DNA from: an uncultured Lachnoclostridium sp.
GTDB lineage: Bacteria; Bacillota; Clostridia; Lachnospirales; Lachnospiraceae
Assembly (NCBI GenBank): GCA_947369165.1
Contig: CANBKJ010000013.1
Location: forward strand, 1 to 46,058
DNA: 46,058 nucleotides
Direction of reading: 5' to 3'
The notes beneath the pieces were generated by a model that saw only the letters and a list, made by a program, of their open reading frames with translations, was not told the origin of the DNA and searched no databases. Shown piece by piece: positions 456-17,502 of the stretch; the first letter of the stretch is position 1; each line of letters opens with the position of its first letter. The translations under genes and the position numbers were made by a program.

Positions 456-1805
456 TCAATACTTGTCAAATCCATCTCCAAGGGAAATGATCTGTTCATT
501 CATATTAATCTTTGATGATGACATAGAACTGTCTCCACGGAAACTAGCAGCTCCCGAATCAGAACCTGTATTGTAGATAGAAAGCAGATCGCGCATGCGT
601 GTCGCCTGATTTGATAACTCTTCACTGGCTGCCGCACACTGCTCACTGGTAGCAGAGTTGGTCTGTACCACCTGGGAAACCTGAGATATAGCCTGCTCGA
701 TCTGCACTACAGCAGTCGTCTGATAATTAGAAGACTCGGCAATACCATTAATGATCACTTCACTCTTCTGAACTACATCTGTAATAATATCCAGCGCCTT
801 TGCTGTGTCATCTGCGATCTTAGAGCCTGCTCCTACCTTCACGATAGAATCTTCAATAAGCTCTGCTGTCTCTGCTGCTGCTGCTGCACTTTTAGCAGCA
901 AGGCTTCTAACCTCTTCTGCTACGACAGCAAAACCTTTTCCTGCTTCACCAGCTCTTGCTGCCTCAACTGCTGCGTTCAATGCAAGAATATTGGTCTGGA
1001 ATGCAATGTCATCGATTACCTTTATGATCTTAGAAATGCTCTCGGAAGACTTATTGATATCTTTCATGGCTTCCATCATATCCTGCATCTGCTTATTTCC
1101 CATCTTCACATCGGAGATCGCCTGAACCACTAATTCAGTAGCAGAATTTGCCTGCTCTGCGTTCTGTCTTGTCTTATCTGCGATTTCATCAATGGAAGCT
1201 GTGATCTGCTGAATCGCACTTGCCTGCTCGGTAGACCCCTGCGCCAGAGACTGGCTGGCATCCGCTACCTGAGATGCACCAACAGTTACCTGGGCAGCTG
1301 CATCGTTGATGTTGCTCATTGCATGCTGGTTATCTTCTACCAGTTTTTTCAGGGAATTCCCTAAAAGATCATCAACTGATTTTGGCGTTACCTGCACGGT
1401 CAGATTTCCGTTCGCAACTTCTTCTGCAATGTCCGCCTGATACTTGATATTTTCAATTACTTTTGTATATTCATCTACCAATCCACCAAATTCATCGTTA
1501 TTATGTTTTACGAGCTTAATATCAACTTTTCCCAAAGCAATGTCTTTTGCTGCAGTAGAGAGCTGACCAACAGACACCCGGATGGTCCGGATGATAAAAT
1601 AAGCATATACTACAATAATAAGAATGGAAACAATAATAAGTGCAGCAGAAAATATTAAATAATTTTCTATGTATGCTTCTGTATCCTCTGCCTGTTTGAG
1701 TCTTCTCATAGCAGTATTTTCCATGAATACGTTTAATATCATCAGTAATACAGGAAGCAAAAATCCAATTAATAATTTTGTTCTAATTTTCATATTCTTC
1801 ATCAT
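456..1805 (-). CDS. Methyl-accepting chemotaxis protein without extracellular sensor domain
   Basis: This is a membrane chemoreceptor of 449 residues. Two transmembrane helices (about 11-29 and 49-72) are separated by only some 20 residues, so there is no periplasmic ligand-binding domain. A HAMP domain follows (about 72-125) and then a second HAMP-like segment (126-165). The long helical signalling hairpin has the conserved tip around residues 264-303 ([20 protein letters not shown]). No C-terminal CheR-tethering pentapeptide is seen. The start codon overlaps the cheW stop by one base (TAATG) and has an AGAGAGG ribosome binding site, so it is translationally coupled to cheW. It is the last gene of the operon and the only receptor here. 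It probably senses membrane state or cytoplasmic signals; that is inference. Confidence 0.93.
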
Positions 1806-2326
1806 TATACCTCTCTTTCTTCTTCACTCATGTCATTGACCTCTTCAATAAGTGACAAATCTTCGTCGTTTAAAAGCTTATCCGGATCAAGCAGCAGCTT
1901 TACAGAATCGCCAACTCTTCCAATACCATAAACATACTGGTTCTGAGCCTTATCCATACGTCCAATCGAAGGTGGAGGCAAAATATTCTCATCTGGAATC
2001 TCCACAACCTCTGCAATTTTTTCGACGATCAATCCAACTACTGTATCCTTGACATTAATGACAATAATGCAGGTTCTGTCATTATACTCAAAGGGATCCT
2101 GTTTAAACCGAAGCCGCACATCAATCACAGGAAGAATTTTTCCTCTTAAATTAATCAGACCTTTAATATAATCCTCTGTCTCCGGTATTGCTGTGATTGC
2201 CTGAAAACCAATAATCTCATTAACATACTGAATTTTCAATCCAAAATATTCATTTCCAGATTTAAAGGTCATGTACTTGCCTTTTTGTGCGTCGTGCTCG
2301 CTGGTGAGATCTTTTGTTTCATCCAT
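1805..2326 (-). CDS. cheW: CheW coupling protein
   Basis: CheW is the scaffold that links the chemoreceptor to CheA. The 173-residue product is a single CheW-like domain: the N-terminal [15 protein letters not shown] strand, then [19 protein letters not shown] in the middle, and a strand matching [15 protein letters not shown]. The ATG at 2326 is preferred over one 12 nt upstream, because AAAGGA directly abuts the earlier ATG and would not work as a ribosome binding site there. It lies between cheA (25-nt gap) and the receptor gene (1-nt overlap). Family membership is clear. Confidence 0.93.
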
Positions 2327-2351
2327 GATTAGCACCATTCCTTTCTATCTG

Positions 2352-4505
2352 TTATTCTATTAATCCTACTGGGTCCAGAATAAGAGCGATACTTCCGTCT
2401 CCTAACTGGGTACAGCCGGAAATTCCTTTTACTTTTTTGATGTAAGAAGGAATTGGTTTTACTACGATCTCCTGTTTTCCAATAAGTCGGTCCACAAGCA
2501 GACAAATGGTCTTTCCCTCTACCTCAAAAATCAACATCATTCCCTCTTCCACATTCTTGTGGTACTCTTCCAATCCGTACCAGTCTCCAAGTCGAAGTAC
2601 AGGGAAACACTCTCCTCGAATCATGATGTATTCTTCACCAGTAGGCTCATGAATCATCATATCCTCTGTCACACTGACAAATTCCTTTATAACACCTGTT
2701 TCCACCACAAAAGAGGAATTTCCTGTCTCCATTACGATTCCATCAATGATCGCCAGAGTCAAAGGAATTTTCAGTGTCATAGTGGTACCCATTCCCAGAT
2801 TACTTTCAATATCCAGGGTTCCACCAATGGACTGGATGTTCTGAACAACAACATCCATTCCCACACCCCTGCCTGAGTATTCTGTCACCTGTTCGTTGGT
2901 TGAAAAACCAGGGAGGGTAATAAACTGAAAGACATCTTTATCTTCATAAGCGGAATCCGGCTTGGATGGATCTAAAAGTTCCTGTTTCCTCGCCTTTTCC
3001 AAAATCTTTTCCCGGTCAAGACCTTTTCCGTTGTCTTCCACACTGATCCAGACCTTACCAGCTTCTGTTCTGGCTGACAAGGTGATCTTTCCGCGGTCAG
3101 GCTTGCCGCTGTCAGCACGTTCTTCATCGCTCTCTATTCCATGATCCACAGCATTTCTGACCAGATGCATCAGCGGATCCGAAATATTTTCAATGATATT
3201 TTTATCCACTTCTGTATGCTCGCCGACCATCACAAACTCAACATCTTTTCCAAGTTTCCTGGAAACATCAAAGACGATCCGGTTCATTTTCTGGAATACA
3301 TTGGTAAGAGGCACCATTCGCATGGACATGATCACATTCTGCAGGTCTGTGGAAATCTTCGCCATCTGTGCTGCCGCTTTGTTAAAGTTGGTAAGATTCA
3401 ATCCCGGCACCTTTAAATCCTGGTTCTGCAGAACAACAGACTCTGAAATCACCAACTCTCCGATCAAATCCATAAGCTGATCCATCTTCTTCACATTTAC
3501 ACTGATGAAAGAAGCCTTTTCTCCTCTTTGCTTATCCTTTGCCAGTTTTTTATGTTTACCTGGCTCCTTGGACTTAATGACAAAATCTCCTGGCGCCATC
3601 TTAGGCTTTGATGGTTCTTTCTTTTCCTCAGCCTCTTCCGCCTTCATCGCTTTTGCTTCAATCTCTTCAGCGCTGGATTCCAGGTCGATTCCAACTACTG
3701 GGTGTTCACCAAAATCAAAGCCCTGTAAAAATTCTTCGGCTTTGCATTCATAGATATCCACTTTCTCAATGTCATAGCCAACTTTAATGATCTCCCTCAG
3801 TTCTTCCTCAGAACACTGCGCCTGAAGCAGAATTCGGAATCCATCCTCCATAATCGCATCGATACTGCTGGCATCGGTGATCAGATCTTCCGGTTCATAC
3901 AACAGATCCTCCGCGATCTCCTTCAGCGAATATACCGTTTTGTAGGCATGAACATTTGCCATCTCTGTCTCTGGAAAAAAGTTTATGTAAATCTTATAAA
4001 AACGGCTGGCACTGTTTGCCACTGGTGCGATATAAAAATGTTTGGGCTCTTCGCTCACATTCTCTTCCGGGAGCTCTTTCCCTTCTTCTACTGCACCATT
4101 TTTAATATTCTCCAAAAAGCTGTCTAACTCAGCGATGATAGCAGCAGGGTCTCCATCCGCCGGGCTGCCTTCCTGTATCTTTTCCATTTCAGCAGTAATA
4201 AAATCTGCCACTTGAAGTACATGCTCTACCAGATCGGCATGAACGACATTTTCGGGATGAGATTCTCTCAGGTAATAAAAAACATCCTCCAGCTTATGTG
4301 AGATGGCTGTGACATTGTCGAACATCATTATTCCAGAAGAACCTTTGATCGTATGCATTGTTCGAAATATCTCATTGATACTATCTTCATCAAAACATTC
4401 CGCATCTTTCTGATCCAGAACAATCTCCTGAAGCTGCTCCAGCAGCTGCTCGTTTTCGAACAGATACGTATCAAGCATTCCTTCTAAGTTAAATTCTTCA
4501 GCCAT
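2352..4505 (-). CDS. cheA: Chemotaxis histidine kinase CheA
   Basis: This 717-residue kinase phosphorylates CheY- and CheB-type receivers under receptor control. The order is: N-terminal HPt domain with the phospho-accepting His51 in MHTIKGSSG; a middle region of about 155-265 that probably binds the response regulator; a charged linker rich in Glu and Lys (270-330); the dimerisation domain (about 335-390); an HATPase domain with N-box HLVRNAVDHGIES (447-459), G1 DNGKGLD and G2 GRGVGMD; and a C-terminal CheW-like domain (about 580-715). All catalytic motifs look intact. Length is normal. It lies between a CheY-like gene and cheW in one operon. Confidence 0.97.
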   Translation of the reverse strand: MAEEFNLEGMLDTYLFENEQLLEQLQEIVLDQKDAECFDEDSINEIFRTMHTIKGSSGIMMFDNVTAISHKLEDVFYYLRESHPENVVHADLVEHVLQVADFITAEMEKIQEGSPADGDPAAIIAELDSFLENIKNGAVEEGKELPEENVSEEPKHFYIAPVANSASRFYKIYINFFPETEMANVHAYKTVYSLKEIAEDLLYEPEDLITDASSIDAIMEDGFRILLQAQCSEEELREIIKVGYDIEKVDIYECKAEEFLQGFDFGEHPVVGIDLESSAEEIEAKAMKAEEAEEKKEPSKPKMAPGDFVIKSKEPGKHKKLAKDKQRGEKASFISVNVKKMDQLMDLIGELVISESVVLQNQDLKVPGLNLTNFNKAAAQMAKISTDLQNVIMSMRMVPLTNVFQKMNRIVFDVSRKLGKDVEFVMVGEHTEVDKNIIENISDPLMHLVRNAVDHGIESDEERADSGKPDRGKITLSARTEAGKVWISVEDNGKGLDREKILEKARKQELLDPSKPDSAYEDKDVFQFITLPGFSTNEQVTEYSGRGVGMDVVVQNIQSIGGTLDIESNLGMGTTMTLKIPLTLAIIDGIVMETGNSSFVVETGVIKEFVSVTEDMMIHEPTGEEYIMIRGECFPVLRLGDWYGLEEYHKNVEEGMMLIFEVEGKTICLLVDRLIGKQEIVVKPIPSYIKKVKGISGCTQLGDGSIALILDPVGLIE

Positions 4506-4538
4506 ATCCTTCTCCTTTCCCTTAGATTCTTGTGTTTA

Positions 4539-4946
4539 TTATATCAGATTCAGCTTTTTTAATGCTTGCTCAAACCTGGTCTGATCAATTGGTTTACCAG
4601 AATAAATGGTACATCCCAGATCGAATGCCATTTTAACATTCTGCTCCTCATTCAATGCGGTGGTCATAATCACCTTAACTTCATTTTCCTTCGGAATATT
4701 TTTCTGTTTCTCCAGATTCCGGATCCCCATCAATGCCTGATATCCATCCATAACTGGCATCATAATATCCAGGCATACCAGATCATAGGGCTCTTCGTCT
4801 TCCAGAGCCATCAAAAAGGCATCCACCGCCTCCATTCCGTCTACGGTCACATCACATTCTCCGTATTGGGACAGGAAACTCACCATAAACTTCCTGGTTG
4901 CGTAATCGTCCTCTGCCAATAAAATCTTCATAATTTTTTCCTCCAT
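4539..4946 (-). CDS. Single-domain CheY-like response regulator
   Basis: This stand-alone receiver domain of 135 residues has acidic residues in LLAEDD, the phospho-acceptor Asp60 in VCLDIMMP, the switch threonines in IMTTAL and the conserved lysine in SGKPID. It has no output domain, so it must act by protein contact, either on a motor or as a phosphate sink. The alternative start at MKILLAEDD (five codons later) is possible. It lies between cheB and cheA, the usual place for cheY. With no flagellar genes nearby, a motor-binding role cannot be assumed, so no symbol is given. Confidence 0.88.
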   Translation of the reverse strand: MEEKIMKILLAEDDYATRKFMVSFLSQYGECDVTVDGMEAVDAFLMALEDEEPYDLVCLDIMMPVMDGYQALMGIRNLEKQKNIPKENEVKVIMTTALNEEQNVKMAFDLGCTIYSGKPIDQTRFEQALKKLNLI

Positions 4947-4958
4947 TCGCGCACGTCT

Positions 4959-5987
4959 TTACATCCTGTTTAAAACAGAATATGTTCTTTTTGCGATATC
5001 TGATAATTTATCCTGATACTCTACGGCGCCAAGATCATATGCCACTTTCGGCATACCATATACGACACATGTAGATTCATCCTGACCGATGGTCCTGGCT
5101 CCCGCCTGTCTCATGGCAAGCAGGCCCTTCGCACCATCTCCACCCATTCCGGTCAGAATGATACCCAGAGCATCCTTTCCTGCCACTCTCGCTACCGACT
5201 CAAACAACACGTCTACTGACGGACAGTGACCATTTACTTTTGGTCCTGCAACCACTTCCACCTGATAGTTTCCGCCTACATTTACAACCCGCATATGTTT
5301 GTCGCCTCCCGGAGCGATCAACACTGTTCCTGGCAGGACCCTGTCCCCGGTACGGGCTTCTTTTACCCTGACCCGGCACTGGTTATCCAGTCTTTTCGCA
5401 TACATCTCCGTAAATCCGGGGGGCATATGCTGTACGACAACGATACCAGGAAGATCCGCGCCATAATCTTTCATCACAGAACAGATCGCCTCTGTGCCGC
5501 CTGTAGAAGCACCGATTGCAATGATCAGATTTTTTCCTTTCGATACAAAATTCTGCTGAACTTCCTGCGCAACTTTCCTTTTGATCTTACTGATCTTAGC
5601 AGTGGAAGCAATTTTGATCTTCACCAGCAGTTCATTGTGAACAAAATTTTCCAGCTGTTTCCTGTCTGTATAGGACGGCTTCGCCACAAAATCCACTGCT
5701 CCAGCGTTCATTGCATCAAATACCTTATCGGAAAGAGAACTAATAACTACCACTGGAAGAGGATATTGTGGTATCAATTTTCTCAGAAATTCAATTCCAC
5801 TCATTCGAGGAAGTTCCACGTCAAGAGTCATAACATCCGGCTTATATTCCAATATGGCATCCCTTGCTTCAAAAGGATCTTTTGCCGTACCTACTACCTG
5901 TATGCCCGGATCTTTACTTAAACTCTGTACTAGCAGCTCCCTGAAAACCATGGAATCTTCCACCACTAAAACTTTAATTGGACGCAT
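4959..5987 (-). CDS. cheB: Protein-glutamate methylesterase CheB
   Basis: CheB removes methyl groups from chemoreceptor glutamates and deamidates glutamines, which resets receptor sensitivity. The 342-residue protein has an N-terminal receiver (phospho-acceptor Asp56 in MTLDVELP) and a C-terminal esterase domain. The catalytic triad is visible: Ser161 in GASTGGTE, His187 in VVQHMPPGF and Asp284 in TGMGGDGAKG. Both domains look complete. It precedes cheR's partner set in the operon: cheR lies 18 nt upstream and the CheY-like gene just downstream. Confidence 0.97.
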   Translation of the reverse strand: MRPIKVLVVEDSMVFRELLVQSLSKDPGIQVVGTAKDPFEARDAILEYKPDVMTLDVELPRMSGIEFLRKLIPQYPLPVVVISSLSDKVFDAMNAGAVDFVAKPSYTDRKQLENFVHNELLVKIKIASTAKISKIKRKVAQEVQQNFVSKGKNLIIAIGASTGGTEAICSVMKDYGADLPGIVVVQHMPPGFTEMYAKRLDNQCRVRVKEARTGDRVLPGTVLIAPGGDKHMRVVNVGGNYQVEVVAGPKVNGHCPSVDVLFESVARVAGKDALGIILTGMGGDGAKGLLAMRQAGARTIGQDESTCVVYGMPKVAYDLGAVEYQDKLSDIAKRTYSVLNRM

Positions 5988-6005
5988 AGCTTTTACCCTT
6001 CTTTC

Positions 6006-6809
6006 CTATTTTTTAAATATTGAAGGCTGTACCAACTGAAAGGGAGTGCTGCTCCGATCCAGCGTCTCAGTCATACCGACAAATAAATACCCTCCCGGCT
6101 CTAGTGAATCATATACCTTTTGCACCAGCTCCCGCTTCGTGGCTTCGTCAAAATATATCATCACATTACGCAAAAATATCGTGTGCATTTTCTTCCGGAA
6201 TGGGAAAGGGTCCATCAAGTTAAATTTTCTAAAAATCACTTCTTTTTTCAACTCATCTGTTGCAGCATAGCTGCCATCTTTCAAGTGATTAAAAAAATGC
6301 CGTTTCCAGTTTGCCGGTACACTTTTCAGATGTTCATCCTCATAAACTCCAGCAATCGCATGGCTCAATGCCTGCGTTGATATATCAGTAGCCAGAATCC
6401 TGGCATCCCAGTTTTTATGCTCCAGTCCCAGGAAATCATTGACCACCATAGCGATCATATAAGGCTCTTCTCCCGTAGAAGAAGCACCACACCAAATACG
6501 CATATCCTTAGAATGTTCTTCTTTTTTCTTGATCCACGGAAGTACGACACTTTTAAAAAATTCAAAATGTCCGAACTCCCTCATGAAATAAGTATGATTC
6601 GTTGTCAGAAAATTCACCAGAGTCTTCTCTAATTCACCGGATGCATCTTTTTCCACATCATTCATATACTCGTCAAAAGAACTCCACCCACCCGATTTTA
6701 AATAATTTTCCAGCCTGCCATTCATTATAACCTTTTTCTGGCTCATGTCAATGCCATACCGCTGTTTTAAAAAAGAAACTATTCTCAAAAACTCATTGTC
6801 CGTAATCAC
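6006..6809 (-). CDS. cheR: Chemoreceptor methyltransferase CheR
   Basis: CheR transfers methyl groups from S-adenosylmethionine to receptor glutamates. The 267-residue protein has the small N-terminal helical domain (1-75), then the Rossmann domain with the SAM-binding motif WCGASSTGEEPY, the acidic ATDIS strand and the FLRNVMIYF motif. Translation starts at GTG, with AAGGAG eight bases upstream. No TPR extension is present, matching a receptor that has no pentapeptide tether. It is coupled with cheB in the operon. Confidence 0.96.
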   Translation of the reverse strand: MITDNEFLRIVSFLKQRYGIDMSQKKVIMNGRLENYLKSGGWSSFDEYMNDVEKDASGELEKTLVNFLTTNHTYFMREFGHFEFFKSVVLPWIKKKEEHSKDMRIWCGASSTGEEPYMIAMVVNDFLGLEHKNWDARILATDISTQALSHAIAGVYEDEHLKSVPANWKRHFFNHLKDGSYAATDELKKEVIFRKFNLMDPFPFRKKMHTIFLRNVMIYFDEATKRELVQKVYDSLEPGGYLFVGMTETLDRSSTPFQLVQPSIFKK

Positions 6810-6849
6810 TGCTCTTACTCCTTAACAACAAAATTTTTTACGTCTTTTT

Positions 6850-7923
6850 CTAACAAAGCTGACGTGCTATTTTATGAAAGATTTTAAATATCTCCGGATG
6901 GAATTTTTTACCAGATTCCTGGCTCATGATCTGCAAAGCCTCCTCTTTGCTGTACTCTTTGCGGTACGATCTTCTCTCTGTAAGGGCACAATACACATCA
7001 ACAATGGATACGATCTGTGCTGCCAGAGGGATTTCCTCTTCTTTTAGCTGTGACGGATACCCGCTTCCATCCCAATTTTCATGATGATAATTCGCCACAT
7101 CAATAGAAATCTGGATAAAATCATTAAAATCACTTGTCACATACAAGTCTTTCAAAAGCTTAGCCCCGATCTGTGTGTGACTCTGAACCAGTACTCTCTC
7201 TTCCTCAGAGAGCTCCGTTTCTTTGTGCAGAACAGATCTCGGAATTCCGATGTTTCCAATATCACAAAGGGGCGCTGCAACTTCAATGGTATCTATATAT
7301 GTATCCGAAATCCGGTCTGTAAACAAAGGTGAAAACTGCATACTTTGTGCCAGAATCCTGCAGTTTTTCTGTAGCCTCTCGATATGTTCGAGACTATAAA
7401 AAGAATTTTCTGCCGCCACGCCAACCAGCGCATACAGTACATTTTTCCGCTCCTGTTCAATCTGTTTCACCTGTTCCTGAACCGATTTCTGGAGACGCCT
7501 GTTATTTTCGCTGACCTTAAGCGTCGCCGCATGGAGAGAAAGGTGTAACTTTACTCTCGCCTGAACGACTTCTGGGATAAACGGTTTGACAATATAATCA
7601 TTTCCTCCCAGGGAAAACCCTTTGATCACATCCTCAGTCTCACCAAAGGCGGAGATAAAAATGACAGGAATTTCTCTTGTCTTCGCATTCTCCTTTAAGA
7701 TCCGGCATAATTCATGTCCACCCATCTCAGGCATGGAAACATCTGTCAATACCAGATCCGGACTGCCGCGTTCTAACTGCTCCAATGCCTGAACACCATT
7801 TTCTGCCGAAACCGGAACACAACCCATGTCTTTTATTATTTCTTCCAAAATCACCCTGTTGGTTTCCACATCGTCTACAATCAAAATTACAGATCCACAA
7901 ATCTCATTTTGCTCAAAATCCAT
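6850..7923 (-). CDS. Receiver protein with degenerate HD-GYP domain
   Basis: A receiver domain (phospho-acceptor Asp61 in LVLTDVSMP, Lys in IVKPF) is joined by a coiled coil (about 135-165) to an HD-GYP-like output domain. The signature HD pair is changed: Cys220-Asp221 in LCDIGNIGIP where active relatives have LHDIGKIGIP, and the following Lys is Asn224. Later motifs survive (YHHENWDGSGYP at 279-290). HD-GYP domains normally hydrolyse c-di-GMP using the HD pair as metal ligands. This one is therefore probably inactive or regulatory, which is inference. The ATG at 7923 lies four bases after the kinase stop, with GAAGAAGGA upstream, and is preferred to an earlier overlapping start. Residues are numbered from it. 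Compare the intact relative at 9455-10537. Confidence 0.88.
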   Translation of the reverse strand: MDFEQNEICGSVILIVDDVETNRVILEEIIKDMGCVPVSAENGVQALEQLERGSPDLVLTDVSMPEMGGHELCRILKENAKTREIPVIFISAFGETEDVIKGFSLGGNDYIVKPFIPEVVQARVKLHLSLHAATLKVSENNRRLQKSVQEQVKQIEQERKNVLYALVGVAAENSFYSLEHIERLQKNCRILAQSMQFSPLFTDRISDTYIDTIEVAAPLCDIGNIGIPRSVLHKETELSEEERVLVQSHTQIGAKLLKDLYVTSDFNDFIQISIDVANYHHENWDGSGYPSQLKEEEIPLAAQIVSIVDVYCALTERRSYRKEYSKEEALQIMSQESGKKFHPEIFKIFHKIARQLC

Positions 7924-7927
7924 CAAA

Positions 7928-9385
7928 TCAATTTCCTTCTTCCGTCTCATGTTCAACGCATGCTTTTAATTCTTCCAGTCCCTTGATTGCTTTTTCGTAA
8001 TTCGCCTTTTGAACAGCCATCTTCAGCCGCAGCACTCCCCTCGTTACCTCTCTGGGAGCCTCTTCTGTCAGCTGTCTTATGGTCTCCATAAAGTCCTCTG
8101 CCTTCTCCCAGTTTTCCATCTCGATACAGAGGATCAGTTTGGATAAAGTTTTACCTAAAATATCTTTGTTCTCCGGCGAACCATATATACGAAAACCTTC
8201 TACCTGGCTTTCTTTCTTCTCTTTCAATTCCAGAACAGTGTCCGGAAGCTCTCCAGCTTTCCGGCCCAGATGGGATTCTGGTGCAATCGGATCGGAATCC
8301 TTATCCTCATCGATGGTAACCCAGATCGAAAAGGTAAAAGTCGTTCCCTTATTCACTTCACTTTCTACGCTGATACTGCCTCCCATCATCTCCACAAACT
8401 GCCTGGTAATATTCAATCCCAGCCCAGTGCCTCCGTATTTTCTTGTGATCGAGGCATCCACCTGTGAAAAACTCTGGAACAATTTATCATAATCTTCTTT
8501 TTTTATACCAATACCGGTATCCATCACTAGGAAATACAGTTCGATGGAATTTTGCACCTGGGCGGTTTCAATGATCTCAACGGAAACGCTGCCTACATGA
8601 GTGAATTTCTGGGCATTTGATAACAGATTGTTCAGGATCTGAACAATCTTCAGTTCATCTCCTATGATATACTCTGGTATCTTCGGTGAGACCGTCACAA
8701 AAAATTCCAGTCCTTTTTCTGTCATCCTGTTCTGATGATTACCGCGTACATAGTCAATCATATTACGAAAATGAAACCTACGGTTTTCCAATACAAACTT
8801 TCCGGCTTCCAGCTTGGAAAAATCCAAAATATTATTGATGAGCCGGTTCATATCTCCGCAGCAGCGCTCGATCAGCCGCAGGGCTTTCCGTTTTCTTTCA
8901 TCCTCTTCCTTCTCGGTCAGATCCATAACATTTCCCAGAATTCCATTGACGGGAGTTCTGAGTTCATGTGTCACATTGGCTACAAATTCAGACCTTACCT
9001 TGAGTGCCTGTTCTGCTTCCTGCTTTACCCGTTCCATCTCCTGATTCAAAAATTCTTTTTCCAGGATATCATTTGCCATACACACATACTGGGATCTTTC
9101 TTCATCCCATAGCATTCGTGCCTCTGCCGGAAAGCAAGTTAGATTTTTTCGATAGGCGACCACATTCTGTATCTGACTGCCAAAGCGGTATTCTGTTGAA
9201 AATCCATCCTCAATCTGTTGAAACTCATTGGGAAAAATGCTGCTAATGTGACTGCCGCACAACTCATCTCCATATTCCAGTTCCTCTTTCGCAGCAGCAT
9301 TCGCATATGTAATGATACCTTCCTGGCTAAACATAAGGATCATTTCCAAAGCGTTCTCAACAGGCAGTGCTCCAACCTGATCCAT
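7928..9385 (-). CDS. Soluble PAS-domain sensor histidine kinase
   Basis: This 485-residue cytoplasmic kinase has no transmembrane segment. A PAS-like domain (about 10-110) is followed by a short coiled coil, then the HisKA domain with His140 in FVANVTHELRTPVNG. The ATPase domain carries N-box NLLSNAQKFT, G1 DTGIGIKKED and G2 GGTGLGLNI. The last 90 or so residues are helical and recall an HPt fold, but lack the HxxKG phosphohistidine motif. No receiver domain is attached, unlike typical hybrid kinases. The ATG at 9385 has GGAGG five bases upstream and is preferred to a GTG four codons earlier. The two receiver/HD proteins encoded on either side are its likely phosphoryl targets, perhaps through the divergent HPt protein; this is inference from position. 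Confidence 0.9.
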   Translation of the reverse strand: MDQVGALPVENALEMILMFSQEGIITYANAAAKEELEYGDELCGSHISSIFPNEFQQIEDGFSTEYRFGSQIQNVVAYRKNLTCFPAEARMLWDEERSQYVCMANDILEKEFLNQEMERVKQEAEQALKVRSEFVANVTHELRTPVNGILGNVMDLTEKEEDERKRKALRLIERCCGDMNRLINNILDFSKLEAGKFVLENRRFHFRNMIDYVRGNHQNRMTEKGLEFFVTVSPKIPEYIIGDELKIVQILNNLLSNAQKFTHVGSVSVEIIETAQVQNSIELYFLVMDTGIGIKKEDYDKLFQSFSQVDASITRKYGGTGLGLNITRQFVEMMGGSISVESEVNKGTTFTFSIWVTIDEDKDSDPIAPESHLGRKAGELPDTVLELKEKKESQVEGFRIYGSPENKDILGKTLSKLILCIEMENWEKAEDFMETIRQLTEEAPREVTRGVLRLKMAVQKANYEKAIKGLEELKACVEHETEEGN

Positions 9386-9454
9386 ATCTTCCTCCACACA
9401 TAGAAAGACAGCGTAAAAAGCAGCAGTTTCCTTCTACTCCGCCGTCTGTTCCAT

Positions 9455-10537
9455 TTACATAAAACTAAATATACGATTTACATCCACCATATCAAAGAAG
9501 TCTTCATTCGCAAGTTCAAAACATTCCAGAATATCCGGAGAAAACTGTCCGCACTCACCGTTCTGGATCATCTCATAGGCAACGGTATGAGGGAATGCAG
9601 CCTTATATACCCTCTCACTGATCAGTGCGTCATACACATCTACAATGGATACCACCTGCGCCCAGATCGGAATCTCATCTCCCGCCAAATGATCCGGGTA
9701 TCCATTGCCATCCCATCTCTCATGATGATAACGGCAGATGTCGTAACAGTAACGATAGAACTCATTGTCCTCTTCCTTCTTGAACTTCTTCAGCATATCA
9801 CAGCCAATGGTCGTATGAGTCTTCATCGTCTCAAATTCTTCTTCCGTTAACTTTCCTGGTTTTAACAGAATGGAATCTGGTATTCCAATCTTTCCAATAT
9901 CATGAAGTGCAGATGCTCTGGCAATCTCATTGATCTGCGTCTCGGTAATCCCATATTTAGGAAAATACTTCGCAAGATACTTCAACAGAATTCTTGTGAA
10001 GTACTTGATCCGGCGGATATGTTCTCCCGTCTCGGAACTTCTGAATTCCACTACTGAGCTGAGGGCGCTGATCAAAAATTCGTTATTTTCCTGAATCTTC
10101 TTCTCTTTCGCCAGAATCGCCTCTTCCTGCTCTTTCAGCTTTCTCTCCATATTCGCCTTATGCTGATAGAGGTCAATGATGTTCTGTGCTCTTCTTTTGA
10201 CGATATCCGGATAAAATGGTTTATGTATCACATCCGCAATGCCATAGGCATATGCTCTGTCCTCGCTGTCCCGGATGGTCTCACTAGTGATCAGAATAAC
10301 CGGAAGCTGTTCGATCAGCCCCTTCTCCTTCATATACTCCAGCACATCGAATCCATCCTTTACCGGCATCACGATATCCAGTAAAACCAGCACAAAACCC
10401 GGATCTTCCTCCAGCCTGTCAATCGCCTCCTGGCCATTGGTCGCCTCCACAATGTTAAAGCTGGACCGGAACATTACCTCCAATATGGTTCGGTTTACTT
10501 CTTCGTCATCTACTATTAAAATCCGTTCTATATCCAT
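9455..10537 (-). CDS. Receiver/HD-GYP protein, probable c-di-GMP phosphodiesterase
   Basis: This is the first gene of the chemosensory operon. A receiver domain (phospho-acceptor Asp54 in VLLDIVMP, switch IITSE region, Lys in IHKPF) is joined by a charged coiled coil (about 125-155) to a complete HD-GYP domain. That domain has GEHIRR, His212-Asp213 in LHDIGKIGIP, the KTHTTIGCDML segment and YHHERWDGNGYP (270-281). HD-GYP proteins of this design (RpfG type) break down cyclic di-GMP when the receiver is phosphorylated. The product is 360 residues, and AGGAG lies five bases before the ATG. The intact motifs contrast with the second copy two genes downstream. c-di-GMP substrate specificity is inferred from the motif, not shown. 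Confidence 0.92.
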   Translation of the reverse strand: MDIERILIVDDEEVNRTILEVMFRSSFNIVEATNGQEAIDRLEEDPGFVLVLLDIVMPVKDGFDVLEYMKEKGLIEQLPVILITSETIRDSEDRAYAYGIADVIHKPFYPDIVKRRAQNIIDLYQHKANMERKLKEQEEAILAKEKKIQENNEFLISALSSVVEFRSSETGEHIRRIKYFTRILLKYLAKYFPKYGITETQINEIARASALHDIGKIGIPDSILLKPGKLTEEEFETMKTHTTIGCDMLKKFKKEEDNEFYRYCYDICRYHHERWDGNGYPDHLAGDEIPIWAQVVSIVDVYDALISERVYKAAFPHTVAYEMIQNGECGQFSPDILECFELANEDFFDMVDVNRIFSFM

Positions 10538-10585
10538 TTTTACTCCTGTACAACTTATTTTATTTTTTAATATTCTTTAAACTAG

Positions 10586-10614
10586 AGGATATCATAGATT
10601 GTTAGAAATGTCAA
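10586..10614 (-). promoter_or_regulatory. Putative sigma-A promoter of the chemosensory operon
   Basis: On the minus strand a consensus -35 box TTGACA (10609-10614) is followed after exactly 17 bp by TATCCT (10586-10591). The start codon of the first operon gene lies about 50 nt downstream. The -10 box is only a 4/6 match, so the promoter may need an activator or be weak. Confidence 0.6.
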
Positions 10615-10716
10615 CAAATATCCGATTGTAATTCCCTCCTAAAAGGTGTTATATATTGCCATTCCCGGGCATTTCTTTTCAACAGACTGTGGATCATCAG
10701 GAATCGAAAAAATAGT

Positions 10717-10745
10717 TAGACAATCCCACAAAAATCCTGTATAAT
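10717..10745 (+). promoter_or_regulatory. Putative sigma-A promoter of the HPt gene
   Basis: TAGACA (10717-10722), a 17-bp spacer and a perfect TATAAT (10740-10745) lie 70 nt before the HPt start codon. The leader that follows contains an imperfect hairpin around GGCAATACGCAATTGC. About 100 bp separate this promoter from the divergent operon promoter, leaving room for a shared regulator. Confidence 0.65.
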
Positions 10746-10815
10746 AAATTTAAATTTACACAGTCGGAGGCAATACGCAATTGCTCCCGGCGAATAACTT
10801 TAGCAGGGGGATGAA

Positions 10816-11187
10816 ATGGATACACTATTTTTCGACAAATTAAAAGACGCAGGTGTCGATGTAGACACTGCCATCAAACGTTTTATGGGCAAAGAGGATC
10901 TGTACCTCAAATTTTTGGCCAAATATCAAAATGACGAAAGCGCCGCTAATATTGAGAAATATCTGGCAGAAAAAAATGTAGAAGAAGCATTCAAAAGCGC
11001 ACACACATTAAAAGGAGTTGCAGGTAATCTCGGTCTGGATCCGATTGCCAAATACGCCTCCGAAATGGTTGAACTTCTCCGGGGCAAAGACCAACTGGAA
11101 GAGATCGACGCGGATCAGCTTGGTTCCGTCTCCGAGGAACTTCAGGCGGTACACCGCTCACTGCTGAATATTCTGTCAGAACTTTAA
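10816..11187 (+). CDS. Stand-alone HPt phosphotransfer protein
   Basis: This is a small all-helical protein of 123 residues with the phosphohistidine motif SAHTLKGVAGNLGL (His63). The N-terminal 40 residues resemble the extra helix found on HPt proteins that pair with hybrid kinases. HPt proteins shuttle phosphoryl groups between receivers and have no catalytic activity of their own. It is one of only two plus-strand genes in the window and shares an intergenic region with the chemosensory operon, so it probably serves the PAS kinase and the receiver/HD proteins encoded there. The start has AGGGGG upstream. It has its own promoter and a strong terminator, so it is a one-gene transcript. Confidence 0.88.
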   Translation: MDTLFFDKLKDAGVDVDTAIKRFMGKEDLYLKFLAKYQNDESAANIEKYLAEKNVEEAFKSAHTLKGVAGNLGLDPIAKYASEMVELLRGKDQLEEIDADQLGSVSEELQAVHRSLLNILSEL

Positions 11188-11251
11188 CAATCCGGTGACG
11201 GCAGAAAATATGCCGGTCCAGATATAGCGAAACGACGCCATTAAACTAAGA

Positions 11252-11295
11252 GGGTATCCTTTAAGTCATGATCTGACTTTTGGGATACCCTTTTT
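11252..11295 (+). terminator. Rho-independent terminator after the HPt gene
   Basis: GGGTATCC (11252-11259) pairs with GGATACCC (11283-11290), and an inner stem AAGTCA/TGACTT closes a 5-nt loop. A run of five T residues follows on the plus strand. It lies about 65 nt after the HPt stop codon and separates that gene from the convergent GH43 gene. Confidence 0.85.
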
Positions 11296-11343
11296 ATTTC
11301 AAATCAGATGGCAGCAGTCAGCACTGCTTTGGACTCTGTTTCG

Positions 11344-12768
11344 TCACTCATGCAGCAGCTCAAAGGACAGCAGACTTGCCGTGCCGCCTCCCCGGTAAGT
11401 GAGATAGACCGCCTGGGTCCCATCCGGAATCCGTGCTTTTACAGAATACTCTTCCCACACATTCGTGTACTGAACCGGTATGGCCGCCAGCGCTTCTCCA
11501 TCCCATTTTGTCTTAACTTCAAATACGCCGTCGGCGTAGCCGCGGACTTTGATCCGGACTCCCGTTACATTTTCACAGGAAAAATATTTGAATCCCGCGG
11601 TGGCAGAGTCCTGCATATTGGCGATATATCCCGGCTCTTCATCGCCATCCCTTCCATCCTGCATGATTTTCGGAAATTCATCTCCCCCCACATAGACAGA
11701 AGGCTTATCCGTAAACAAGTGGCAGGCTATGTAAGCCGGATATTCTCCTTCATCCGACAAGGGACCGCCGTTCAGGCCGCAGGACGTAATCTCCACCTGG
11801 GGAATGCTTCCGTCCGGCAGAATGTGGATCTCCTCGGCGCAGCCCTGTCTGCTGTACCAGCAGCCATTGGTATGGCGGTGGTAAAATATGTACCATTTTC
11901 CACCAATCTCCACAATGCTTCCGTGATTGTTGGCGCCATAGGCCATAGGCAGGGAAGCCGGCTTCCCCTCCTCCAGATTCAGGTCACAGTTGCTGACGAT
12001 CACCCCTCCATAAGTAAATCCCTTGCATGGATCCTGGCTCACCGCATAACAGAGCTCATGCATCACAACGGAAGAATAAATAAAATAATAGGTGTCACCG
12101 ATCTTGCGCATGGAGGATGCCTCAAAGAACTCATGTCCTTCAAAACTGCTGCCCTCCGAATACTCACATCCAGGAGCCACCCTTACCGGATCTTCGATGA
12201 TCGTAAGCATATCCCGGTCAAGAACCGTCGCCATAGCCCCGGTACGGGACTTATCACCCCTGCCGCAAAAACCGGTATAAAGATAGGTGCGTTCCCCCTC
12301 GGTGAGTACACCAGGATCAAACTGAGGTTCGTCCCCCTCCCTGTCTCCCAGCCTTGTGCCATCTTCATAATGTACATATCCATAAAACTGATACTGCCCT
12401 GCCGGCGTATCACAGACTGCCACGGACACTACAGACACATGATCCAACACATAGTATAAATAATATCTTCCGTCCGGTCCCACTGTCACATCTGGCGCAT
12501 AGAGACACATCTTTCCCTCTTTGTTCAGCGGATCCTCTGTCTTGGGGTAGATCACTCCCTCGTATCTCCAGTCCCCCAGATCTTCCACCGGCGCCGACCA
12601 GCACACATAATCGCCCAGGCAGAATACATGCCCGTTATAATAATCGTGGGAACCATACACATACACCCTTCCGTCAAAGACATAGGGTTCTCCATCCGGG
12701 ATATACTCCCAGGATGGAAGATATGGATTCACCGCCTGTTTCTTTCTGCCGCCTGCTGCTTCTTTCAT
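11344..12768 (-). CDS. Intracellular GH43-family glycosidase with CBM6-like C-terminus
   Basis: Glycoside hydrolase family 43 enzymes have a five-bladed beta-propeller and mostly release arabinose or xylose from plant polysaccharides. Residues expected for catalysis are visible: Asp25 in YIPDGEP (general base), Asp93 in YAPDVTVG and Glu216 in FFEASSM (general acid). Repeated propeller strands end in YYLYY, YYFIYS and WYIFYHRH. Residues from about 345 form a beta-rich module like CBM6 (WEEYSVKARIP, AVYLTYRGGG). With no signal peptide, it should act on imported oligosaccharides in the cytoplasm. AGGAGG lies about 10 nt before the ATG. It lies 61 nt downstream of a second GH43 gene, so the two are probably co-transcribed. 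The exact substrate cannot be read from sequence. Confidence 0.85.
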   Translation of the reverse strand: MKEAAGGRKKQAVNPYLPSWEYIPDGEPYVFDGRVYVYGSHDYYNGHVFCLGDYVCWSAPVEDLGDWRYEGVIYPKTEDPLNKEGKMCLYAPDVTVGPDGRYYLYYVLDHVSVVSVAVCDTPAGQYQFYGYVHYEDGTRLGDREGDEPQFDPGVLTEGERTYLYTGFCGRGDKSRTGAMATVLDRDMLTIIEDPVRVAPGCEYSEGSSFEGHEFFEASSMRKIGDTYYFIYSSVVMHELCYAVSQDPCKGFTYGGVIVSNCDLNLEEGKPASLPMAYGANNHGSIVEIGGKWYIFYHRHTNGCWYSRQGCAEEIHILPDGSIPQVEITSCGLNGGPLSDEGEYPAYIACHLFTDKPSVYVGGDEFPKIMQDGRDGDEEPGYIANMQDSATAGFKYFSCENVTGVRIKVRGYADGVFEVKTKWDGEALAAIPVQYTNVWEEYSVKARIPDGTQAVYLTYRGGGTASLLSFELLHE

Positions 12769-12829
12769 TACTGTATTTCCTCCTCTCTGTTCCCGCTGCT
12801 TTTCCTCTCCATTCCGTGGCCGAGCCAGG

Positions 12830-14614
12830 CTATCTCACTACGACTTTTGTCCTTACCCGGCTCAACTCTTCGGATACGTCCCGGCTCTCCACCAGATCCA
12901 GTACCGGCAGACCATCGATATCAAAATGAACCCTGCGGATCCCACTGCTTCTCTCACCGTGGATCCCCGGTCTGGCATGATAGGAATTCCAGACATCACC
13001 ATATTCATCTACCACATAGGCATTATGTCCTGTTCCAAATTCGCCCTCCACACTGCGGGACGTCATGATCGGATAATTTCCCTTCTTCCAGTTTTTTGGA
13101 TCCAGCAGATCTTTGTCTCTGTCAATGGTCATAATTCCCACCACATAGGAAGTGTCCACTGCCGCGCTGGAAAAGGTAAGAATCAAACGTTCTTCCTGGG
13201 GAAGTGCAAAAGGTCCCTCATCCACAAAGGTATGGTTATTTGCCCATCCGTATTCCGGCTTGGAGAGAAGCACCGGTTCCGAGAGAAGCTTCCAGGGCTC
13301 ATCCGCATTTAATTTAGCAATATAGAGCCAGGCTCCCAGATCCTTTGGTAGAAACTGTCTCTGGGACCAGACTACATAATAGTCCCCTTCCCAGAAAAAG
13401 CATGTCATATCCAGCGTAATGGTCTTTCCTGCTTCGCACAGTTGGCTGCCATCGCTGCGAACCACCCTTTTCGGCTCCGACCAGTCCTCCTTACGGGAAG
13501 GATTTCCGCCTTCCTTCAACTTCATAATATGGGATTCCTCACAGAAAAACTCTTCCGGGGTAAGCGCCAGGAATATATACAATTCTCCTTTGATCTCATG
13601 AAATTCCGGTGCCCACAAAAGATTCCCCACATAATCATAAGTATCCGAATCCAGGATCAGATGCTCTTTAGCATCCACCAGTCCCGGTATGGTATCCGCC
13701 TCTCTGACATATAAGGTATGGTTCTTATCCGCGTCATTGGTAGCGATAAAATAATATTTACCGTTCCAGTATGTAATGCAGGGATCCGCCCTGTCCTCCG
13801 CCATAGGGAACGGAAAATGATCCTGATGAAGTTTCCCCTCTGCCTCGTAAACTCCCGGACGGCTCCAGTCGATGGTATCCATATTCCAGTCCACCCGCTT
13901 TGACGCTTCTGTCCCGTCGCTGTACAGCGCCCTCGCCCAGACCATCTCCAGCTGCTCCCGGCTGGACACCTGAACTTCTTCTGGTACTTCCGTCTTTATA
14001 TGTCTGGGGGGCTGCAGTTTCTGTACCAATCGCTCTGCCGCCTCATCCGGTATGGAAATGACATTTCCTGCCACCGCCCCCTCGATCTCCGTCTCCACCG
14101 CCGGCAGAACCAGCTCATCCACCCTCACACCAGTGATCTTCTGGTCTGTGCATTCTATGCCCTGCAGCTCTGCCCTGTACCACTGCCGGTCCGACTGGCA
14201 CCAGCACAATTCATACCTTTCTTTTCCGGGATCATAATGGCACACCACCCGGTCCACCGCGCCCTCACACAGAGACAGAAATCCTTCTTCACTGTACTCC
14301 AGCAGATCGTGACTTGTAAAAAATATGACTTTACCGATACTCTCCGTATCCTCACCGCCGTCACCGTCTACCCGCACAGCCACTACTCCATATGTACCAT
14401 CCTTCATCACAAACAGATAAGGATGGCGTATACTTTTTGCATTCAGGGAACCATCTTCATTTTCCGTCGCCTTGGCAAAGAGCACGCCCGAATTGTGATT
14501 GAGGGCATGAAATCCCCCCTCTTCTCCCAGTGCAAGGTGCATACTGTAAGCCAGTTTGGGATCATAATAAAACTCATCAATTGGTTTTCTCGTATAGCAT
14601 AAAATATCTCTCAC
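12830..14614 (-). CDS. GH43-related glycosidase with N-terminal accessory and Ig-like domains
   Basis: Three parts are visible, numbered from the GTG at 14614. Residues 1 to about 205 are beta-rich and unassigned, possibly a partial propeller. About 213-262 look like a bacterial Ig-like domain (YSDGTEASKRVDWN, SRPGVYEAEG). The rest is a GH43 propeller with Asp277 in RADPCITYWNGKYYFIAT, Glu337 in LLWAPEFHE and Glu466 in VDEGPFAL. There is no signal peptide. Start choice is open. An ATG at 14638 would lie only 2-3 nt after the predicted transcription start, giving a leaderless mRNA. The GTG used here has GGAGG 11 nt upstream. It is the first gene of a two-gene GH43 transcript. No sugar transporter or regulator lies beside it, which is unusual for such enzymes. 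Confidence 0.8.
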   Translation of the reverse strand: MRDILCYTRKPIDEFYYDPKLAYSMHLALGEEGGFHALNHNSGVLFAKATENEDGSLNAKSIRHPYLFVMKDGTYGVVAVRVDGDGGEDTESIGKVIFFTSHDLLEYSEEGFLSLCEGAVDRVVCHYDPGKERYELCWCQSDRQWYRAELQGIECTDQKITGVRVDELVLPAVETEIEGAVAGNVISIPDEAAERLVQKLQPPRHIKTEVPEEVQVSSREQLEMVWARALYSDGTEASKRVDWNMDTIDWSRPGVYEAEGKLHQDHFPFPMAEDRADPCITYWNGKYYFIATNDADKNHTLYVREADTIPGLVDAKEHLILDSDTYDYVGNLLWAPEFHEIKGELYIFLALTPEEFFCEESHIMKLKEGGNPSRKEDWSEPKRVVRSDGSQLCEAGKTITLDMTCFFWEGDYYVVWSQRQFLPKDLGAWLYIAKLNADEPWKLLSEPVLLSKPEYGWANNHTFVDEGPFALPQEERLILTFSSAAVDTSYVVGIMTIDRDKDLLDPKNWKKGNYPIMTSRSVEGEFGTGHNAYVVDEYGDVWNSYHARPGIHGERSSGIRRVHFDIDGLPVLDLVESRDVSEELSRVRTKVVVR

Positions 14615-14647
14615 TCTGTCTTTTACCTCCAAATTCATTATAGTCCC

Positions 14648-14676
14648 ATTATACCGTGTATTTGGGAAAAGTACAA
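14648..14676 (-). promoter_or_regulatory. Putative promoter of the GH43 pair
   Basis: On the minus strand TTGTAC (14671-14676), a 17-bp spacer and a perfect TATAAT (14648-14653) precede the upstream GH43 gene. The predicted start of transcription, near 14641, almost touches the first ATG (14638). This argues for the downstream GTG start or for a leaderless message. Confidence 0.65.
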
Positions 14677-14711
14677 TGATGATTCCATATCATTTTACTG
14701 ACCATTTCTAT

Positions 14712-15434
14712 TCACAAAATATTGAGAATTCCAGATTTTATTGTCTCCCAGATCACCCTCTGCAGCTCCAGCGACGTCTGCTCGTCATAATCCTCATTCA
14801 GAAGTTCGTTGTTGGAGATCACCCGCAGAGCCACACAGGGTACGCCGCATTCCTGGCATGCCTTATACACCGCAAAAGTTTCCATATCCTCGCTGAGATG
14901 ACCAAAAGTCTCATGCAGCCACTGGATCCTGTCCTTTTCCTTACTGAACAGATCCCCCGTCCCAAGAATTCCAGTAACCACCTTTCCGCTCCGGGTCTCC
15001 TTTCCGATCCCCTGTTCAAACTTCCGAACCAGATCCGGGTCCGCATCCATATATTCTGTTTCCATCTTCACCCACTCTTGCGGCGCCATGCCCTCTCCAA
15101 AATCCCGCTTTGGCATCTTCAGGGAATGTACGTTGACCGCCTGGCTTCCGATCACCAGATCTCCGCTTTTTAACGTATCCACCTGTGCTCCGGCGGTTCC
15201 CTGATTGATGATAACATCCGGCTGAAATTCATAAATGGCTGTCATAGTGGCGATGGCAGCATATACCGTTCCCATCTTAGTCAACTGCAATAGAATCTCC
15301 CTGCCATCCAGCTCCGTCCGATAGAAGAGAAAACCATTTCGGATGGTCTTTTCTGCTTTCTGAAAACATTCCTGCTCCAGATACCAGCAGATTTCACTTT
15401 CCATCGCTCCCTGTATCAGTATTTTCTTTCTCAT
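14712..15434 (-). CDS. MTA/SAH nucleosidase-like protein (PNP/UDP phosphorylase family)
   Basis: This 240-residue protein has the nucleoside-phosphorylase fold. The N-terminus LIQGAMESEI places Glu12 where 5'-methylthioadenosine/S-adenosylhomocysteine nucleosidase (MTAN) has its catalytic acid. INQGTAGA and Met184-Glu185 in EDMETFAVY match the substrate pocket. The usual catalytic Asp of the VRAISD motif is Asn208 here (RVISNNE), so activity or substrate may differ from true MTAN. Such enzymes cleave adenine from methyl-cycle and autoinducer-2 by-products. A GGAGG box precedes the ATG. It lies downstream of fabH on the same strand, separated by a palindromic repeat, so co-transcription is uncertain. 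Confidence 0.75.
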   Translation of the reverse strand: MRKKILIQGAMESEICWYLEQECFQKAEKTIRNGFLFYRTELDGREILLQLTKMGTVYAAIATMTAIYEFQPDVIINQGTAGAQVDTLKSGDLVIGSQAVNVHSLKMPKRDFGEGMAPQEWVKMETEYMDADPDLVRKFEQGIGKETRSGKVVTGILGTGDLFSKEKDRIQWLHETFGHLSEDMETFAVYKACQECGVPCVALRVISNNELLNEDYDEQTSLELQRVIWETIKSGILNIL

Positions 15435-15493
15435 TCTCTTTCCTCCAAATTTTTTTCCAGATCAGTTTACCCCGGGGACATGCCCAGGGCTCA

Positions 15494-15529
15494 AATTGGC
15501 GCCGTTGAGCTAGCTCAATGGCGCCAATT
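15494..15529. repeat. 36-nt near-perfect palindrome, repeat copy 1
   Basis: AATTGGCGCC, then a centre reading TTGAGCTAGCTCAA, then GGCGCCAATT form a palindrome with a single G/T mismatch (a wobble pair in RNA). It begins 14 nt downstream of the fabH stop codon. There is no T-run, so it is not a classical terminator; it could protect a 3' end or be a REP-like repeat. A diverged copy lies at 17421-17456, also just downstream of a minus-strand gene. Confidence 0.8.
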
Positions 15530-15542
15530 CACAATCTCAGTT

Positions 15543-16517: not shown

Positions 16518-16537
16518 GAAATCTCCTCCAAAATAAA

Positions 16538-16570
16538 ATACTATCCTCTATGATTTGGTTTTGAAAACCA
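16538..16570 (-). promoter_or_regulatory. Putative fabH promoter with overlapping palindrome
   Basis: On the minus strand TTTTCA (16562-16567), an 18-bp spacer and TAGTAT (16538-16543) lie just before the fabH ribosome binding site. The -35 box lies inside a perfect 15-bp palindrome, TGGTTTTCAAAACCA (16556-16570). That is where a repressor of fatty-acid synthesis could bind. The match to a known operator (FapR, FabT) is not clear. Confidence 0.45.
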
Positions 16571-16608
16571 CCTCATACGGTTATTTAGATTTTTCCCTTA
16601 AACCAAAA

Positions 16609-16637
16609 TCAAGAGAGCCTTTTTACAGCCCTCTTGA
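16609..16637 (-). terminator. Probable terminator after efp
   Basis: TCAAGAGGGC and GCTCTCTTGA on the minus strand form a 9-10 bp stem around a short A-rich loop, about 70 nt after the efp stop. It is followed by ATTTTGGTTT. It separates efp from fabH. Confidence 0.6.
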
Positions 16638-16704
16638 AAAAACTCATATTCTCTATTATTTTAAAGTCCCAGATGGTTTTCCTATTATCATATGATATCA
16701 GGAA

Positions 16705-17262: not shown

Positions 17263-17338
17263 ATTCAGTTCCTCCTGCTTTTTACGTACAGAATGCTCTT
17301 TTTATTTCCTTCTATACAATTTAATACATCTAAACATT

Positions 17339-17367
17339 ATTCTATTATATTTTGAAACATTTTTCAA
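17339..17367 (-). promoter_or_regulatory. Putative efp promoter
   Basis: On the minus strand TTGAAA (17362-17367), a 17-bp spacer and TAGAAT (17339-17344) lie about 75 nt before the efp start. A TATAAT overlaps the -10 box five bases upstream but would give a short spacer. Confidence 0.55.
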
Positions 17368-17456: not shown

Positions 17457-17502
17457 TATCTCAAGCTTATAACCATCAAATATGACATGCCACGGCAGTG
17501 CT

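Follow-up and report, generated by a model that had tools for sequence, protein, structure and literature searches.

A second chemosensory operon with an auxiliary kinase and two receiver-HD-GYP proteins, one of them degenerate, in a Lachnospiraceae genome with flagellar genes

What does a complete set of chemotaxis genes do when it shares an operon with a soluble PAS kinase and two receiver-HD-GYP proteins, and lies beside a divergent HPt gene? The question is raised by an uncultured Lachnoclostridium sp. (GCA_947369165.1), in which this locus occupies one end of contig C13 (CANBKJ010000013.1); the entire contig, 46,058 nucleotides, was analysed and is called here the window, and the assembly amounts to 2.8 Mb in 123 contigs, with a completeness of 92.6%. 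An earlier note on the same DNA had described the locus as an operon of the che core with receiver/HD-GYP and PAS kinase genes and a divergent HPt; the open reading frame list and Pfam confirmed all ten genes within 456..11187, the core domains of the operon proteins scoring above the curated cut-offs. In order of transcription, the nine minus-strand genes code for HDGYP1, the PAS kinase, HDGYP2, CheR, CheB, CheY2, CheA2, CheW and a chemoreceptor (MCP), spaced by gaps of -29 to 57 bases, while the HPt gene diverges from them across 278 bases. We read the locus as a second array, not of the F1-like kind, with a network of CheA2 and the kinase acting on receivers, an HPt in some species and one active HD-GYP enzyme, a proposal in which belief and doubt are about evenly balanced; the output of the array would probably be a tuning of cyclic di-GMP (c-di-GMP), setting swimming against settling.

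The absence of flagellin, motor-switch and CheD genes, remarked upon in the earlier note, holds for the region but not for the genome, which has three flagellin matches, two matches of the FliM/FliN type and, by eye, a CheD. A flagellar run on contig C4 contains, as judged by eye, FliF, FliG, FliI, FlgD, FlgE, MotA, MotB, FliM, FliY, CheY1, FliP, FliR, FlhB, FlhA, FlhF, FlhG, a PilZ-like protein, CheB, CheA, CheW, CheD and a sigma factor, and Pfam confirmed its CheW, CheA and CheB. Since the flagellar regulon of this genome includes a separate CheB-CheA-CheW set, the operon of the window is a second chemosensory system; its being the only chemotaxis set of the cell, which beside a normal flagellar regulon would have undone the earlier interpretation, is ruled out by the flagellar CheB-CheA-CheW and CheD. 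Likewise, the single receptor of the operon is one of 21 MCP-signal matches in the genome, where Pfam also matched 6 CheW domains, 2 CheB, 9 HD_5 and 8 GGDEF; two of the CheW-domain matches lie outside both che clusters (C41:16204-16608 and C6:55025-55432). CheA2 (2352..4505, minus strand), with a P1 domain bearing the His, P2, dimerisation, ATPase and CheW domains, matches the two best-scoring solved structures, 6s1k and 3ja6, which we take to be the CheAs of E. coli and T. maritima, almost equally (323.3 and 305.7 bits), whereas the flagellar CheA favours 3ja6 (394.8 vs 355.7 bits).

The nearest named relatives, by their labels, place the locus in the family Lachnospiraceae; among the best 80 loci are those of Acetitomaculum ruminis, of Anaerosporobacter faecicola and of assemblies labelled as uncultured Roseburia and Lachnospiraceae. 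CheA2, at an identity of at least 50% and nearly full length, was found in 18 of 150 family genomes, its own included. All 18 also carry an F1-like CheA, compared with 70 of the 150 overall (Fisher p 2.9e-7, kinship ignored; the 70 are set by an identity band, and 14 of them were placed by the tree), and the other 17 all have FliM/FliN, so that CheA2 goes with flagellar genes. The idea that genomes without an F1-like CheA are aflagellate was ruled out, FliM/FliN being present also in 12/12 genomes with only another CheA class; this check covered the genomes with a CheA match at E 1e-60, which 68 lacked.

Eighteen loci from the 150-genome set and 13 from the wider scan's best 80, one being shared, gave 30 distinct CheA2 loci (L114 and L070, of 19,804 bases each, are apparently one contig, which reduces 31 loci to 30 and the 24 HDGYP2 sequences to 23). 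The kinase-HDGYP2 pair lies beside che genes in 23 of the 30, with CheA2 identity down to 57%; three contigs (L042, L118, L123) were too short to judge. In 8 of the 23 (the window, L065, L068, L078, L113, L119, L122 and L130), HDGYP1 precedes the kinase on the same strand. These counts show that the gene order is common to relatives and not unique to this genome, and the comparison across relatives, suggested in the earlier note, bears out that the che core stays together with the PAS kinase and a receiver-HD-GYP. No CheR was seen in L072, and the che genes of L115 are rearranged; the latter record is labelled Muribaculaceae with the same operon type (69% CheA2), perhaps through mislabelling or a mixed bin.

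The two HD-GYP proteins differ in their active sites. For the motif names, the ligand roles and the residues of an active enzyme we assumed the following set: Glu and His of ETGxH, HDxGK, the His of THT, HH, GYP and the Asp of DVYDAL. HDGYP1 (9455..10537, minus strand), a receiver followed by HD-GYP, has this entire set, and all canonical residues are kept in 8/8 sequences. HDGYP2 (6850..7956, minus strand) has the same architecture, but a full active site is found in 0 of 24 sequences (23 distinct). The position of the HD-His is occupied by C in 13, by S in 2 and by H in 9; 21 have lost the HDxGK Lys, 23 the ETGxH Glu and 20 the DVYDAL Asp, while the receiver keeps its Asp in 24/24 and its Lys in 23/24. 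The window protein lacks the Glu, the HD-His (replaced by Cys) and the Lys (replaced by Asn), reading CDIGN for HDxGK, and thus does not hold the residues of an active enzyme. Fifteen sequences, that of the window included, have CDxGN or SDxGN; because decay affects other positions in L078, L119, L120 and L122, the sequences suggest that the site decayed more than once, and some HDGYP2 proteins may still be active, since the Glu is the sole loss in L116 and the last Asp the sole loss in L117. The structural model of HDGYP2 keeps the HD-GYP fold (pLDDT 84, pTM 0.57), its best solved match being PA4781 (4r8z, E 2.5e-12).

HDGYP2 of the window thus looks like a phosphorylated non-enzyme, and HDGYP1 is likely the one c-di-GMP phosphodiesterase. 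The designation of two HD-GYP proteins stands by domain, but activity of both, with both breaking down c-di-GMP as the earlier note had it, was rejected for HDGYP2 by residues only; what survives of the overall interpretation is the separate, conserved che system, not its pair of active enzymes. The overlap between HDGYP2 and the kinase rests on the listed TTG start; relatives begin at a Met corresponding to codon 12 of the window gene, and this ATG is probably the true start, which would abolish the overlap.

The phylogenetic tree of CheA, reduced from 116 to 115 sequences by dropping matches that end before query residue 690, pieces shorter than 350 residues and one duplicate, exhibited a CheA2 clade (29/29, support 0.90) that joins a clade comprising sequences from a number of family genomes as well as from Syntrophomonas wolfei, Cand. 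Epulonipiscium and Clostridium (38/38 together, support 1.0). The genome's own flagellar CheA belongs to another clade (14/14, support 1.0), which we infer to be F1 and which does not include CheA2; thus CheA2 does not fall with the CheA of its own flagellar cluster, as an F1 protein would, nor with that of E. coli (L193), as expected for F7, the latter being found among proteobacterial CheAs. The wider grouping is unsupported (0.32). In L088, from the sister part of the clade of 38, cheA follows FliM, a flagellar-type CheY, FliP, FliR, FlhB and FlhA (L210 and L088 together), and more distant CheAs near flagellar genes occur in L082, L094 and L209.

A flagellar-type CheY adjoins cheA in six sister loci (L084, L087, L124, L125, L126, L149), and the flagellar-type CheYs of the sister loci group with the genome's own flagellar CheY (7/7, support 0.98); such a CheY is missing beside CheA2 here. 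The lone receiver of the operon, CheY2 (4539..4946, minus strand), forms a clade of its own, apart from the flagellar CheY (27/27, support 1.0), in a tree of receivers from 35 chosen loci from which domains spanning fewer than 96 residues were dropped. The kinase adjoins CheY2 in 7/7 distant clusters, which were chosen because both genes matched, and many other distant CheA loci have neither. Our reading of these sequences is that the chemosensory lineage dropped the motor-type CheY here and retained the kinase-side one.

The receptor (456..1805, minus strand), of 449 residues, has predicted transmembrane segments at 11-29 and 54-72, 24 residues apart, and no sensor domain; its HAMP match is marginal in Pfam (27.7 vs 25 bits). 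Among 25 distinct operon receptors, the spacing of these segments is less than 30 residues in 15, about 150 or more in 8, and intermediate in L080 and L065. The signalling hairpin aligns gap-free over query residues 148-412 to E. coli Tsr (chain 3zx6, 170.6 bits). According to the available part of PMC6943060, Tsr belongs to the 36H class, which F7 systems prefer, while F1 systems usually have 44H receptors; the operon receptor is therefore of the 36H and not of the 44H length, as judged by the Tsr alignment of this one receptor. The hairpin length of the window receptor is shared, with no internal indels, by 5 of 19 recovered receptors (the window, L002, L003, L004 and L005), the remaining ones being mostly longer; 2 of the 21 MCP matches (L099, L102) were not recovered for this comparison. 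Two arrays with separate receptor sets would fit the two length groups.

The PAS-HisKA-HATPase kinase (7928..9397, minus strand) is soluble, with no strongly hydrophobic segment, and its PAS domain (PF13426) falls under the Pfam cut-off (23.9 vs 27 bits). Its C-terminal 95 residues (395-489; 7931..8215) are predicted to form a four-helix bundle (pLDDT 88). The profile of 21 tails from CheA2 operons matched that of 5 tails from distant che-linked kinases with a probability of 95.4% and E 1.9e-8, one pair being compared. In Pfam, the distant tails show at best a weak resemblance to HPt (E 0.00036 for L125, below the cut-off with 21.1 vs 24.6 bits; 0.14 for L126 and for L085; L124 and L149 unmatched), and a His of the AHxIK type is kept in 4/5 (N in L149), whereas the phospho-His of an HPt is absent in 21/21 tails of CheA2 operons, that of the window included. 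Foldseek gave no match for the tail at E 0.001 or less, and by VIA-align HPt chains score on a par with cytochrome c', BRIL and designed bundles. On the profile evidence, the tail shares ancestry with the HPt-like tail of the distant kinases but lacks the phospho-His.

An intact HPt is provided by the divergent gene (10816..11187, plus strand), with the phospho-His in AHTLKG. HPt accompanies HDGYP1 in 7 of the 8 che-linked loci (not in L065) and lies between HDGYP1 and the kinase in L078, L119 and L122; it also occurs beside HDGYP1-like genes on other contigs (L213, L221, L230) and beside L219, which shares a contig with the che operon at a distance of more than 110 kb. The distribution suggests a pair of HPt and receiver-phosphodiesterase that in some species is found next to the che operon.

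The sequence shows a core of receptor, CheW (1805..2338, 127.2 bits in Pfam), CheA, CheB (receiver plus methylesterase, 4959..5987) and the methyltransferase CheR (6006..6809), all on the minus strand, together with receivers of CheY2, HDGYP2 and HDGYP1 that keep the phosphorylation residues, and the HPt. In the mechanism that we propose, the array would be formed by the operon receptor and perhaps the four receptors elsewhere in the genome that share its hairpin length, and would drive CheA2; CheA2 and the PAS kinase would converge on the shared receivers of CheY2 and HDGYP2, much as CheA3 and CheS3 belong to one circuit in the Che3 system of R. centenum. HDGYP2 would serve as a phosphorylated switch or relay rather than as an enzyme, phosphate would move between HPt and HDGYP1 in either direction, and an adapting input would lower c-di-GMP and set swimming against settling, possibly through the PilZ-like protein of the flagellar operon. 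A more specific version, which we find rather unlikely, is a dismantled relay, running from the kinase to the HDGYP2 receiver (Spo0F-like), to the free HPt and to the HDGYP1 receiver, by which the array would set c-di-GMP breakdown. CheA2 would add or drain phosphate at HDGYP2 or CheY2, and the free HPt would have replaced the HPt-like tail of the kinase once this lost its His. Such a relay would explain why HDGYP2 kept its receiver and lost its enzyme, the loss of the tail His, and the association of HPt with HDGYP1.

Several observations weigh against the proposal. In 15 of the 23 kinase-HDGYP2 operons no HDGYP1 gene is adjacent, so that an active phosphodiesterase is no fixed part of the system; the relay alone leaves these 15 unexplained, and the tail His is absent also in their kinases, although the HDGYP1-HPt pair could act from elsewhere, as for instance in G056 (where L213, at 69% identity, has an HPt next to it). 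Among the HDGYP1-like genes with an identity of at least 46%, only 6 of 13 had an HPt in their fetched 1.5 kb flanks, compared with 0 of 7 with an identity of 40% or below (p 0.05), the seven including two HDGYP2 genes; two further matches of at least 46% came without a locus and are outside the 13. Four CheA2 loci (L074, L079, L080, L121) have no kinase or HDGYP2 match in the fetched flanks, hence the che core can do without both. The nearest relatives of CheY2 in the receiver tree, the receivers of distant hybrid kinases, are joined to it with a support of only 0.77 and with one intruder, and descent of the HDGYP2 receiver from that of the hybrid kinases was unsupported, the two grouping apart.

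Because some related CheAs lie near flagellar genes, a role at the motor is possible. CheA2 and CheY2 could then act on it beside the F1-like system, giving a wider receptor repertoire, with the HD-GYP genes as side branches; we consider this accessory flagellar chemotaxis doubtful. It would account for the company that CheA2 keeps, an F1-like CheA in every carrier and FliM/FliN in the other 17, and for the flagellum-adjacent cheA genes both within the clade of 38 and farther away. However, the flagellar-type CheY of the six sister loci is missing here and CheY2 groups apart; within the window, no flagellar gene adjoins the operon by the names assignable by eye, and no sigma-28-like promoter was found in the divergent gap at up to two mismatches, in a scan run without a positive control and also blank, at up to one mismatch, at the three flagellin loci.

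The decayed site of HDGYP2, the operons that HDGYP1 does not adjoin, and the HDGYP1-like and HPt genes lying away from che genes in other genomes would agree with a system of alternative function that is blind to c-di-GMP, in which CheY2 and the degenerate HDGYP2 are outputs acting by protein contact and the HDGYP1-HPt pair is an independent neighbour. This we judge quite unlikely, as in the eight loci listed above the kinase is closely preceded by a same-strand HDGYP1, in three of them with HPt in between. That a standard chemotaxis operon merely stands beside unrelated two-component genes, each of the genes coming from a common family, is very improbable, being weakened by the gene order conserved in 23 of the 30 loci, down to a CheA2 identity of 57%.

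The divergent promoter region (10538..10815) contains sigma-A-like matches on both strands, 11/12 on the plus (10717..10745) and 10/12 on the minus strand (10614..10586); the evidence is weak, the scan of 9300-11400 having given 7 matches vs 4.6 expected from shuffles. Six proteins of the region (HDGYP2, the kinase, HDGYP1, HPt, CheY2, CheA2) reached no NCBIfam curated cut-off among the matches listed. The contig ends 455 bases past the MCP stop, with a tRNA-Pro between, and on the other side two genes adjoining HPt (11344-14638, minus strand) resemble family 43 glycoside hydrolases by eye. The window also includes a 443-residue GGDEF protein (29302-30633, minus strand), the GGDEF domain being above the cut-offs, whose best NCBIfam matches are c-di-GMP phosphodiesterases, each under its cut-off, so that an EAL part is likely, and a Clostridiales-1 RNA (38999-39210, minus strand, 72.5 bits). 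In related loci, the genes scanned before cheR in the basal L074, L079 and L080 include two aminotransferases each, and a 182-residue frame before cheR in L080 had no match. More kinase matches follow the operon MCP in L066, L067, L068, L069, L070, L072, L073 and L141, of which only L068 also has the upstream HDGYP1-HPt; those of L141 are hybrid kinases by Pfam, one of them (16897-19569) with a HisKA-HATPase-receiver-DegV architecture. In Anaerosporobacter faecicola (L117), HPt and a large hybrid kinase come after the operon MCP (14224-18357).

Among the open-licence papers listed in the literature searches, none was recognised as describing such an operon. By analogy, the closest precedent is the Che3 system of R. 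centenum (CheA3-CheS3-CheY3), in which, according to the available part of PMC3868531, CheA3 phosphorylates the CheS3 receiver and only phosphorylated CheS3 phosphorylates CheY3. Both are che-like clusters that include a lone CheY and one histidine kinase besides CheA, and both combine two kinases with several receivers. However, no receiver was matched by Pfam on CheA2 or on the kinase, so that a receiver of the CheS3 type is lacking; here the receivers are borne by HD-GYP proteins and an HPt is present, while Che3, as far as that source goes, controls cyst formation.

The Wsp system of Pseudomonas, as presented in part of PMC8846402, similarly joins a chemosensory system to a receiver-borne c-di-GMP enzyme, WspR, and the same source reports the hypothesis that WspA is stimulated through its transmembrane regions; the receptor described here carries transmembrane segments and lacks a sensor domain. 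Unlike in Wsp, the output enzyme would be a phosphodiesterase and not a cyclase, and an extra kinase, HPt, degenerate HD-GYP and lone CheY2 are present. In Shewanella oneidensis, the available part of PMC6335343 describes the HnoK/HnoS-HnoB/HnoC/HnoD system, in which kinases feed an active phosphodiesterase and an inactive, degenerate HD-GYP regulator, the latter suppressing its partner phosphodiesterase; that system, as described there, has no chemosensory array and its active enzyme is of the EAL type.

Syntrophomonas wolfei (L125) and Cand. Epulonipiscium (L124) also cluster related CheA, CheW, MCP, CheR, CheB, PAS kinase and CheY2. Their kinase, however, is of the hybrid type: it carries a receiver, and its HPt-like tail keeps the His. 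A flagellar-type CheY lies beside their cheA, and no HDGYP2 match lies beside the kinase (the receiver-type match of L124, 41% at 6690, is not of HD-GYP length). The lineage offers a series for studying the rewiring of a taxis-type system, from a flagellar-type CheY in the sisters to none here, from a hybrid to a receiver-less kinase and from a canonical to a decayed HD-GYP, and could bear on the bacterial choice between swimming and settling. In the available part of a surface-sensing table, the outputs of such chemosensory systems are cyclases. An array that is linked to a phosphodiesterase, found in flagellated Lachnospiraceae and in a lineage with flagellum-adjacent members, would widen this cyclase-only picture. 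The operon is a variant on a known theme, in which a chemosensory array is combined with an auxiliary kinase and with outputs of the c-di-GMP type.

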